DNA of 63,024 nucleotides. Origin: Pedobacter sp. Its GTDB lineage: Bacteria > Bacteroidota > Bacteroidia > Sphingobacteriales > Sphingobacteriaceae. Position 1 is the first letter of the stretch, and each line of letters starts with the position of its first letter. Below are positions 17,077-34,368 of the stretch, in pieces. Made by a program: the position numbers and the translations under genes. The notes under the pieces were generated by a model, which was not told the DNA's origin, ran no database searches, and worked only from the letters and a program-made list of their open reading frames with translations. The DNA lies in assembly GCA_014378705.1 (NCBI GenBank), contig JACMND010000047.1:1-63024 (forward strand). Reading direction: 5' to 3'.

Positions 17077-17150
17077 TTATGAAAAGAGGTGCGTGGTTAT
17101 AAAAAATTGAGCTTCGAATTAAAAACCGCCAGTATTTCTGGCGGTTAACT

Positions 17151-28654: not shown

Positions 28655-28916
28655 ATGGTATCTTCCAAACTTACTTTGAGTATGGAACCAGAAGTGGTTT
28701 ATTAAGCAAAAAATTGCTTAAGAGAAAAATATTAGCTTATCAAAAATGGTTGATAACTATTTACGAGCTACATCCAATTAAAAAAAACTATCGAAGGTTG
28801 ATTCTATTGAGATTTCAGACTGGGTAAAGAGCTTAGTAGCGGCTGATAAACCGACGTCTGATTTTGATCACAAGGCGGAGTTTTATAAACATTTAGAAGA
28901 AAAATACGGTCAATGA
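28655..28916 (+). pseudogene. Decayed antitoxin gene (DUF6364-like)
   Basis: The start VSSKLTLSMEPEVVY is followed by TAA. After a frameshift, EKNISLSKMVDNYLRATSN appears, with TAA just before it and another after it. The same frame then continues with SIEISDWVKSLVAADKPTSDFDHKAEFYKHLEEKYGQ and ends in TGA at 28914-28916. This is the shape of the short DUF6364-type antitoxin that precedes PIN toxins in Bacteroidota: ribbon-helix-helix-like N-terminus and C-terminal toxin-binding tail. At least three stops (probable CAA or AAA to TAA changes) and one frameshift destroy it. Its end overlaps the PIN gene as ATGA, as in an intact operon. Confidence 0.65.
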
Positions 28917-29329
28917 AATCAATTTTCCTTGACAGCGATGTATTATTGGATGCCTTGTTAAATCGGGCACCGTTTAATAAAGAAGCCATTGCTATACTTG
29001 AATTATTGCATAATAAAACACTGTTGGGTTTTACATCTTCAATAGCCTTTATTAACATTCATTATTTTCTTGGCAAAAAAGTACTATTAGGTCAAGGTGA
29101 ATTAGATATTATGAAAAAACTTAAAAAAGATATTTCTACAATCAGTATTGATGAACGGATAATTGATTATTCTCTGGAATCTAGATTTTCTGATTTTGAA
29201 GTTGCTGTCCAATATTACGCTGCTAAAAGTGTGGGATGCGAATGCATAGTCACAAGAAATTCGAAACATTATAAACATGCAAAAATTCCCGTTTTAAACG
29301 CAGAACAACTAATAAACTTATCTTTCTAA
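28913..29329 (+). CDS. PIN-domain (VapC-like) protein with degenerate active site
   Basis: 138 residues, PIN domain of the kind paired with DUF6364 antitoxins. VapC toxins are Mg-dependent RNases. The first acidic motif is present (FLDSDVLLDALLNRAPF: Asp7, Asp9). The usual DFEDA reads DFEVA (Val97), and the usual KDF of TRNxKDF reads KHY (His119), so two expected acidic residues are lost. The antitoxin before it is broken. The gene therefore probably no longer makes an active RNase. Its frame is intact and its stop overlaps the pheS ATG (TAATG), so it may be kept to carry ribosomes into pheS. The absence of these residues is judged from memory of the family. Confidence 0.8.
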   Translation: MKSIFLDSDVLLDALLNRAPFNKEAIAILELLHNKTLLGFTSSIAFINIHYFLGKKVLLGQGELDIMKKLKKDISTISIDERIIDYSLESRFSDFEVAVQYYAAKSVGCECIVTRNSKHYKHAKIPVLNAEQLINLSF

Positions 29330-30381
29330 TGCAAAATAAAATATCCCAATACACTGCAGAAATAAATGCCTTTCAATCCGCCCATGCAGAAGAAATTGAA
29401 ACTTTCCGTATTCGGTTTTTGGGAAGCAAAGGCATTATAAAAGATCTTTTTGAAGAATTTAAAACAGTATCGTCCGAAGAAAAGCGGATCATGGGGAAAG
29501 TATTAAATGAACTTAAGCAGCTTACAGAGGCTAAATACCAATCTTTGAAAGAAGGTTTGAATACGGTTACTGAAACTTTTAAAACAGAAGCGGATCTTAC
29601 ATTGCCCGGGCAGGGAATTGAATTAGGTTCACGTCATCCAATCTCATTAGTACGGAAAGAGATCATTGAGATATTTAAAAAATTAGGTTTTAACGTTACA
29701 GAAGGCCCTGAAATTGAAGATGACTGGCATAATTTTTCCGCTTTAAACTTTCCGGAAGAACATCCGGCGAGGGATATGCAGGATACTTTTTTTGTGAGCC
29801 TCAACCCAACCCTCTCCAAAGGAGAGGGAGAGGAAGCTTTTGCCTTACGTACCCATACCTCATCGGTTCAGGTACGAATGATGGAAAACGGCCAACCACC
29901 CTTTCGTGCGATCATGCCGGGCAGGGTTTACCGGAATGAAGCGATTTCTGCCCGTGCCCATTGTTTTTTTCATCAGGTAGAAGGATTGTATATCGATGAA
30001 AATGTATCTTTTGCGGATTTAAAACAAACCTTGTTTTACTTCGTAAAGGAATTATTTGGTGATGATACCAAAGTCCGTTTCAGACCATCTTACTTTCCGT
30101 TTACAGAACCATCTGCCGAGATGGATATTTCCTGTACAATTTGTAAAGGAACAGGCTGCCCCTTATGTAAACAAAGTGGATGGGTAGAGATTCTGGGTTG
30201 CGGAATGGTAGATCCCAATGTGCTTGAAAATTGCAAAATCGACAGTCAAAAATATACAGGTTTTGCATTTGGGATGGGTATTGAACGCATTACAAATCTT
30301 AAATATCAAATAAAAGATCTTCGTTTATTTTCGGAAAATGACATCAGGTTTTTACAGCAATTTCAATCCGAGCTGATCTGA
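29329..30381 (+). CDS. pheS: Phenylalanine--tRNA ligase alpha subunit
   Basis: 350 residues. It has an N-terminal coiled coil (about 1-85, with RIRFLGSKGIIKDLF), then the class II aminoacyl-tRNA synthetase core: HPISLVRKEIIEIFKKLGF, GPEIEDDWHNFSALNFPEEHPARDMQDTFF, RTHTSSVQVRMM (motif 2 region), PSYFPFTEPSAEMDI and GFAFGMGIERI (motif 3). PheT is not in the window. Residues about 158-170 (LNPTLSKGEGEEA) are an unusual insert encoded by a perfect DNA palindrome. CTICKGTGCPLCKQSGW adds a cysteine cluster common in the family. It is translated in overlap with both the PIN gene before it and the lipoprotein gene after it. Confidence 0.95.
   Translation: MQNKISQYTAEINAFQSAHAEEIETFRIRFLGSKGIIKDLFEEFKTVSSEEKRIMGKVLNELKQLTEAKYQSLKEGLNTVTETFKTEADLTLPGQGIELGSRHPISLVRKEIIEIFKKLGFNVTEGPEIEDDWHNFSALNFPEEHPARDMQDTFFVSLNPTLSKGEGEEAFALRTHTSSVQVRMMENGQPPFRAIMPGRVYRNEAISARAHCFFHQVEGLYIDENVSFADLKQTLFYFVKELFGDDTKVRFRPSYFPFTEPSAEMDISCTICKGTGCPLCKQSGWVEILGCGMVDPNVLENCKIDSQKYTGFAFGMGIERITNLKYQIKDLRLFSENDIRFLQQFQSELI
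29810..29828. repeat. Perfect palindrome inserted inside pheS
   Basis: CCCTCTCC, AAA, GGAGAGGG: an 8-bp perfect inverted repeat with a 3-base loop, within the pheS frame. It encodes part of the extra LNPTLSKGEGEEA peptide, which does not belong to normal PheS. The same CTCTCC/GGAGAG type of hairpin is common between genes in related Bacteroidota. Confidence 0.65.
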
Positions 30382-31812: not shown

Positions 31813-31900
31813 TTGCTAATTGCTAATTGCTAATTGCTAATTGCTAATTGCTAATTGCTAATTGCTAATTGCTAATTGCTAATTGCTAATTGCTAATTGC
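31813..31900 (+). repeat. Heptanucleotide tandem repeat, 12 perfect copies of TTGCTAA
   Basis: Twelve uninterrupted copies of the 7-base unit TTGCTAA run from 31813 to 31896, with a partial thirteenth after them. The array ends 22 bases before the rlmD ATG. The unit contains TTG, so artificial start codons appear in every third copy of each frame, and TAA stops lie in another frame. Perfect identity suggests recent slippage and a variable copy number. Confidence 0.95.
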
Positions 31901-31922
31901 TCAAACTTCAAACCTGATCCCA

Positions 31923-33870: not shown

Positions 33871-34274
33871 CACCCGACGAAAGGAAGGACCTCATTCAAA
33901 TATTACTGAGAGGCGTATGCAAAGGAACACGGAGATTTCTCCTCCCAAGGGGTCGTCGGAATGACGATGAATTATCTGGCCTTATTAACCGAAAATACTT
34001 TACAACCCTAACCCAACTGCCGTGACCCCGACATTGGGAGGGGTCTCATTCATATACAACTGAGGGGATTGTGGAAAGGAACACAGAGATTTCTCCTCCC
34101 AAGGGGTCGTCGGAATGACGATGAATTATCTGGCCTTATTAACCGAAAATACTTTACAACCCTAACCCAACTGCCGTCACCCCGACATTAGGAGGGGTCT
34201 CATTCATATACAACTGAGGGGATTGTGGAAAGGAACACAGAGATTTCTCCTCCCAAGGGGTCGTCGGAATGACG
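33871..34274 (+). repeat. 154-bp tandem repeat, about 2.6 copies, internally palindromic
   Basis: The marker AAAGGAACAC begins at 33921 (first, diverged copy), 34075 and 34229, giving a period of 154 bp. Copies 2 and 3 are nearly identical; copy 1 differs at its left end. Within each unit, CGTCACCCCGACATT...GGAGGGGTCTC is an imperfect inverse of GAGATTTCTCCTCCC...GTCGGAATGACG. No gene is supported between 33815 and 34368; open frames here come from the repeat. Confidence 0.9.
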
Positions 34275-34368
34275 GTTTGTTAACGGATAAACAACACTCC
34301 AACACATAAATCAACCTTAATTGTCCTTTGTGTTTACGTATATTGCTGATCAAATCTTAACACTTAAT

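Follow-up and report, generated by a model that had tools for sequence, protein, structure and literature searches.

A translated palindrome in Pedobacter pheS, probably the solo end of a hairpin-bounded DUF559 nuclease element

The gene encoding the alpha subunit of phenylalanine--tRNA ligase (pheS) in Pedobacter sp. contains a palindrome that is read in frame, and our data support the conclusion that this palindrome is lineage specific, is translated within a length-variable loop of PheS, and is a member of a dispersed repeat family. On the basis of sequence comparisons, we consider it probable that the palindrome is the solo end of a mobile element in which a DUF559 nuclease gene lies between two matching hairpins of the pyrimidine-loop-purine type. 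The DUF559 nuclease has a Vsr-like PD-(D/E)XK fold, and the hairpin has a conserved tail in the genus of the window (i.e., the whole stretch of 63,024 nucleotides that was analyzed). On our best reading, the pheS hairpin would be a REP-like, homing-like element end that is tolerated as translated protein.

The 350-amino-acid (aa) open reading frame (ORF) passed TIGR00468, the equivalog model for PheS, and was the sole PheS match in the genome. In agreement with an earlier note on this DNA, which placed a palindrome in frame inside pheS, positions 29810 to 29828 form a perfect 8-bp stem with a 3-nucleotide (nt) loop within this intact ORF (Table 1). Two strong hairpins (stem of at least 8 bp and GC fraction of at least 0.6) were found in the window, compared to a mean of 0.13 and a maximum of 2 in 30 dinucleotide shuffles of it, and none of the strong hairpins in those shuffles had an all-pyrimidine arm. 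The second strong hairpin of the window, at 17124 to 17146 (AACCGCCAG-TATTT-CTGGCGGTT), is not of the pyrimidine-arm type. Elsewhere in the window, a 138-aa ORF (28913 to 29329), PIN-domain-like by eye, lies directly upstream of pheS and overlaps its start, the 7-mer TTGCTAA is repeated in tandem about 12 to 13 times (31813 to 31901), and a 154-nt unit occurs three times in tandem (33873 to 34334), with copies that are 89% and 65% identical to the first.

Table 1. Positions of pheS and of the parts of its translated hairpin unit in the window
Feature	Position	Strand	Evidence or remark
pheS (350 aa; alpha subunit of phenylalanine--tRNA ligase), which harbors the hairpin	29329..30381	+	ORF list; NCBIfam TIGR00468 (E value, 3.6e-95); solved PheS homologues
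Hairpin unit read in frame (42 nt), coding in 14 codons for SLNPTLSKGEGEEA, residues 157 to 170 (S157 to A170)	29797..29838	+	Sequence; missing in most relatives' loops read
Tail AGCCTCAACCCAA	29797..29809	+	One mismatch to the consensus tail AGCCTCACCCCAA (copies of the genus and of G026)
Perfect hairpin core CCCTCTCC-AAA-GGAGAGGG (pyrimidine arm, 3-nt loop, purine arm)	29810..29828	.	

At the protein level, the loop reads FV-SLNPTLSKGEGEEA-FALR, against FI-KKGGEKGD-IALR as the commonest form in relatives. Extra residues thus exist, as the earlier note had claimed, but its figure of about ten was slightly high: with 14 versus 8 residues, the net gain is 6. The turn at the insertion point was shorter in the three solved PheS structures that were aligned. 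An AlphaFold model (mean pLDDT, 72.3) was set aside as unusable for the insert because pLDDT fell below 50 at residues 146 to 175. PheS was present in 397 of 399 genomes of the family, and the loop was read at 107 of the 110 loci retrieved and in a further 20 genomes, of which 12 had been picked for odd match length, a sample in which named and unnamed records may overlap. The inserted residues were missing from most of these loops, bearing out the lineage-specific insert that the note had predicted for a PheS alignment; the converse outcome that it had named, i.e., the same residues in most Bacteroidota PheS proteins, did not occur, and the insert is not a general feature of the phylum.

Among the loops read, recognizable hairpin copies were found in five Sphingobacteriaceae-family genomes, which fall into four genus groups: g1 (the window genome and G114), g2 (G026), g3 (G044), and g14 (G202), the copies outside the window genome being located at L012, L021, L152, and L153 and those of G044 and G202 being partly decayed. 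Long loops without a hairpin were also observed (L022, L058, L150, and L156 to L159), which shows that the loop also varies by itself. The PheS loop is, in summary, a length-variable and repeated landing place; no full DUF559 element was found in any pheS gene read. These observations bear on two other explanations. First, a local low-complexity expansion might have turned the native loop, KKGGEKGD, into a palindrome by chance or slippage, a speculation favored by the A/G-rich nature of this loop and by its variable length among relatives, also where hairpins are lacking. We nevertheless regard it as very improbable, since the pheS copy has the family core and a 13-nt tail with one mismatch, since tail and core are both present in dispersed copies, and since four other genomes have recognizable copies in the very same loop. 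Second, the peptide or the RNA hairpin might have a selected function, tuning PheS or its mRNA. While the insert has been kept in an essential gene with its frame intact, its presence is sporadic, the three solved PheS structures that were aligned have only a short loop, and the RNA fold of the 56-nt surroundings of the hairpin is not unusual (z = -1.1), leaving such a function hardly credible. No Rfam match was found at the hairpin site, and the hairpin is followed by AGAGGAAGC, with no T run.

The perfect core occurs once in the 3.3-Mb genome of the window (G000). With up to one mismatch, seven places match: one in pheS, four in leuS, one intergenic, and one in a nuoB-like gene, the last of which looks like a chance match. 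Across the family, the perfect core was found in 41 of 121 genomes, with up to 33 copies per genome, and a reversed control pattern gave 0 matches; other copies of the hairpin, which the earlier note had proposed to count, are therefore on record both within and beyond this genome. Its statement that such hairpins usually lie between genes holds true in relatives, where most copies look intergenic and 14 of the 63 perfect copies read in congeners and G026 had 80 or more open codons to either side, a set leaving out nine copies (four in leuS of G109 and G119 and five of G026). In-frame copies that are open on both sides in relatives lie in the genes for MiaB (miaB), IcmF (icmF), and a copper P-type ATPase, as well as in leuS. 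A tail like AGCCTCACCCCAA was present on one side in 35 of 62 copies (genus and G026) and on both sides in 2 copies and was not recognized in the remaining 25. The unit consists of AGCCTCAACCCAA plus the core, with AGCCTCACCCCAA plus the core as its consensus, and a terminal GTAG or CGTC tetranucleotide is missing. Core and nuclease co-occur: a strong DUF559 match (E value below 1e-20) was present in 34 of 41 core-bearing genomes versus 16 of 80 others (P = 4e-11, by hand tally). Seven of the 41 core-bearing genomes, e.g., G067 (9 copies) and G103 (12 copies), have no strong DUF559 match, and 16 of 50 genomes with such a match have no CCCTCTCC core.

The leuS gene with the four near-copies also encodes a nuclease domain. 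On contig C180 of the same assembly, leuS is a single open frame of 1,142 codons, with DUF559 at residues 334 to 438; two near-copies of the pheS hairpin, with one mismatch each, directly follow this domain, two further near-copies lie at LeuS site 2, and hairpin-type peptides are encoded upstream of the domain and at site 3. By the strict test defined below, no perfect hairpin was detected beside the DUF559 domain of this gene (L117). The assembly comprises 209 contigs, with 3.13% contamination, and the leuS contig is tied to the window by belonging to the same assembly only. A second, partial leuS match in this assembly (G000:C164:3001-4152; model positions 490 to 842, in a 385-aa frame) may represent a strain variant, a contaminant, or a duplicate.

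Of 54 readable leuS genes, 11 had DUF559 at site 1, 5 had a hairpin peptide (doubtful in L222 and L229), 29 had a short loop, and 9 had something else, numbers that were drawn from 63 rows chosen partly for odd length and are not prevalences. Since the leuS gene of the window genome was entered twice (L117 and L148), the 54 genes correspond to 55 readable rows and the 11 DUF559 cases correspond to 12. Two hairpin peptides without a nuclease were observed at leuS sites in L227, L228, and L230, and a one-hairpin form was observed at the same sites, for instance, in G098 (L256), where the hairpin is perfect in the DNA. The nuclease-free, two-hairpin forms would fit the terminal inverted repeats that a MITE shares with an autonomous element. 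Site 2 of leuS in G021 (L231) is occupied by a 131-aa insert that is unlike DUF559, is nuclease-like by eye, and has no Pfam match.

Counting weak and partial matches (E value of 0.001 or lower), DUF559 was found in 66 of 121 family genomes and in 222 of 395 Bacteroidota genomes, and 51 of the 150 matches listed in the scan of the phylum lie in frames of at least 290 aa. We extracted 99 domains, 75 from long frames and 24 standalone; a fragment in the window genome (L118) was left out of the tree and of later counts, and three of the long-frame cases are doubtful (L282, 204 aa and probably standalone; L312, with masked bases; and L313, probably a spurious frame). Hairpins were then scored by a strict test (perfect stem of at least 7 bp, loop of 3 to 5 nt, and GC fraction of at least 0.55) in the 220-nt flanks. 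For the long-frame domains, we counted 3.48 hairpins per kb in the flanks, 0.27 farther out, and 0.09 inside the domain; for the standalone domains, the corresponding densities were 4.00, 0.09, and 0.00. At least one flank hairpin accompanied 59 of the 75 long-frame and 18 of the 24 standalone domains, and the 16 long-frame domains without one include all 6 HisF fusions. The 5' arm of the nearest hairpins was all-pyrimidine in 110 of 124 cases and all-purine in none. The left and right inner stems of one element agreed at 0.81, versus 0.59 after shuffling (n = 47; P = 2e-4), and hairpin similarity tracked DUF559 similarity across 77 elements (rho = 0.35; P = 0.0005 by permutation within taxonomic families).

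Similarly, at 20 DUF559 loci on viral contigs and named plasmids (12 of 40 plasmid hits and 8 of 15 viral loci; of the other viral loci, six resembled L355 in their match and one matched in part), hairpins with a pyrimidine arm reached 2.64 per kb in the 250-nt flanks versus 0.08 farther away, with hairpin-flanked examples in Pseudomonadota, Deinococcota, and Cyanobacteriota. Seven of these 20 loci, including those of Bacillota and E. coli, were hairpin free in both flanks, and two had a nonpyrimidine hairpin only. On two Deinococcus plasmids (L371 and L372), standalone DUF559 genes lie near hpa catabolic genes, and their pyrimidine-arm flank hairpins differ in sequence.

The arrangement of hairpins around the nuclease is relevant to two further explanations. 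One holds that the pheS palindrome is an ordinary REP- or RPE-like repeat moved by a RAYT (an IS200-like HUH transposase) or by some unknown enzyme, with an incidental link to DUF559. Intragenic, in-frame REPs are described in the literature (PMC3733652), and the shortness of the palindrome, the one-sided tail of 35 of the 62 copies, and the seven core-bearing genomes without a strong DUF559 match would all suit this explanation. It seems unlikely to us, however, with hairpins that flank DUF559, are alike at both ends, and vary with the nuclease. Mobilization by a RAYT was rejected for the window genome, the one genome tested as a host in this respect, in which Y1_Tnp (PF01797) gave 0 matches, while 5 of 14 control genomes were positive. 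According to the other explanation, DUF559 is a Vsr-like host repair enzyme or a restriction nuclease, and the hairpins are transcription terminators or mRNA stabilizers that accompany the ends of a mobile gene. VsrA of Caulobacter, a DUF559 protein, is proposed to act in very-short-patch repair (PMC12907096), and a standalone DUF559 gene lies between the operon genes sufB and sufC (L377). However, hairpins also flank DUF559 inside frames, where a terminator would shorten the host gene, and at pheS no T run follows the hairpin and the fold is unremarkable, which makes this explanation quite unlikely.

The hosts of the long-frame domains, labeled from short motifs or by reading (L124, L128, HsdM, ISP, Eco57I-type, HemF, OppA, and AddA by hand), include LeuS site 1 (16), MetH (9), the N terminus of HisF (6), IcmF (5), HsdR (5), RecG (4), the N terminus of HemF (4), and LeuS site 2 (2), among others. 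Pfam or NCBIfam models placed host and DUF559 in a single chain, with one example each, for LeuS, LeuS site 2, MetH, IcmF, RecG, HisF, TruB, HsdR, HsdM, type ISP, UvrD-like, HemF, SBP_bac_5, GATase_5, Eco57I-type, and RNase H proteins. One HsdR protein (L309:275-3499) contains a GIY-YIG domain in addition to the in-frame DUF559. Full elements reside in frame within unrelated enzymes, and their hairpins and nuclease are thereby translated together with the host protein. By eye, the junctions vary from host to host and frequently consist of peptides coded by the hairpins. The putatively catalytic D, E, and D columns of the domain are conserved in all 75 long-frame domains, and dN/dS of the domain was between 0 and 0.22 in computable pairs, which suggests purifying selection. 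Of two proteins submitted to PADLOC, one HemF fusion gave a marginal homing-endonuclease match (E value, 7.6e-4) and the LeuS fusion gave none.

Signs of movement come from the comparison of inserts with their hosts. In the four closest pairs, the insert had fewer synonymous differences than the host gene (0.03 versus 0.22 for IcmF, Fisher P = 8.7e-5; 0.03 versus 0.30 for RecG, P = 1.9e-6; and 0.16 versus 0.37 and 0.29 versus 0.55 for two LeuS pairs, P = 1.3e-3 and 2.1e-4). Judged by these sequence differences, the insert is younger than the host gene in those four pairs but not consistently beyond them: the fifth and sixth closest pairs gave 0.55 versus 0.57 and 0.76 versus 0.59, and older pairs were mixed (24 printed of 193 computed). 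On the DUF559 tree, host labels needed 27 changes, compared to 68.8 when shuffled, a value that none of 200 shuffles reached. All nine MetH inserts, which come from five families, grouped with support together with a single row of a sixth family, and 42 domains, all of them long-frame, made up a supported branch. This tree was built from 101 columns, 52 of its 95 inner branches are open, and the clustering by host partly reflects close relatives. Neither a target-site duplication nor a target motif was found for the elements.

How such an element might spread can be pictured as follows. The DUF559 nuclease would recognize its own hairpin, or a site marked by the hairpin, and make a break, the repair of which may place a copy of the element, or of a single hairpin, at an allelic or a new site, a process likened to the spread of homing endonucleases and to the spread of REPs by RAYTs. 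Insertions that keep the frame and land in tolerant loops would survive, and the insert would presumably stay in the mature host protein, no sign of splicing having been noticed. In the case of pheS, a solo hairpin may have been placed in trans (leuS of this genome does carry a DUF559 gene), or a full element may have lost its nuclease.

In-frame palindromes in housekeeping genes are already known from RPEs and from GTAG and CGTC REPs (PMC3733652), and the pheS copy on its own would add one more case to these. REPs or RPEs, as short palindromes, are likewise translated within unrelated genes, among them those for tRNA synthetases and truB (PMC3733652 and PMC10969869), and CGTC REPs, which in PMC3733652 include repeats of R. 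conorii, are said there to "apparently lack a dedicated transposase." The likeness to palindromic elements of Rickettsia drawn in the earlier note is apt for the in-frame behavior, since in-frame palindromes in unrelated genes are common to both, but it missed the tie to a nuclease: here, similar hairpins enclose a DUF559 nuclease, which is in turn translated within the host protein. REPtrons, i.e., GTAG REPs with their RAYT, share with our elements hairpins that flank a nuclease gene, repeat-specific enzyme-hairpin pairs, and many solo copies, some of them intragenic; the RAYT, however, is an HUH tyrosine transposase, whereas the enzyme here is a Vsr-like PD-(D/E)XK nuclease.

Homing endonucleases reside in inteins and group I introns, which are spliced. 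Like them, DUF559 is a nuclease found in essential genes at recurrent sites, with an insert that appears younger than its host in the closest pairs; unlike them, the domain appears to be kept as a translated insert and is bounded by hairpins, and its solo ends are scattered in the genome. Caulobacter VsrA and the solved structure 3hrl ("Endonuclease-Like Protein") share the domain or match in sequence but are described as a repair enzyme and as endonuclease-like, respectively, and not as part of a hairpin-bounded mobile element. In the literature searched, which lay outside bioRxiv and most subscription journals, no paper describing DUF559 as a mobile element that is intragenic or bounded by hairpins came to light. 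The element is set apart from RPEs, CGTC REPs, REP/RAYT systems, and the homing endonucleases of introns and inteins in that it has DUF559 as a partner, has hairpins that match, and resides in its host as a translated domain.

Whether DUF559 with paired hairpins makes up a distinct class of mobile element that crosses phyla is, in our judgment, an evenly balanced question; such a class would parallel REP/RAYT with a PD-(D/E)XK enzyme and would also home into essential enzymes in frame and without splicing, the nuclease becoming a domain of LeuS, MetH, IcmF, or RecG, and DUF559 may be the mobilizer that is missing for some of the orphan palindromic repeats found in coding genes. If true, this would provide a candidate enzyme and a mechanism for palindromic repeats that code for protein, including families for which no mobilizer is known, and nuclease genes might then have a third mode of residence inside essential genes, next to introns and inteins. 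It would also give DUF559, still of unknown function by its Pfam label, a testable role and would account for odd GEGRGEA and PSPKERG peptides and for the extra domains that synthetases, methionine synthase, and helicases contain.
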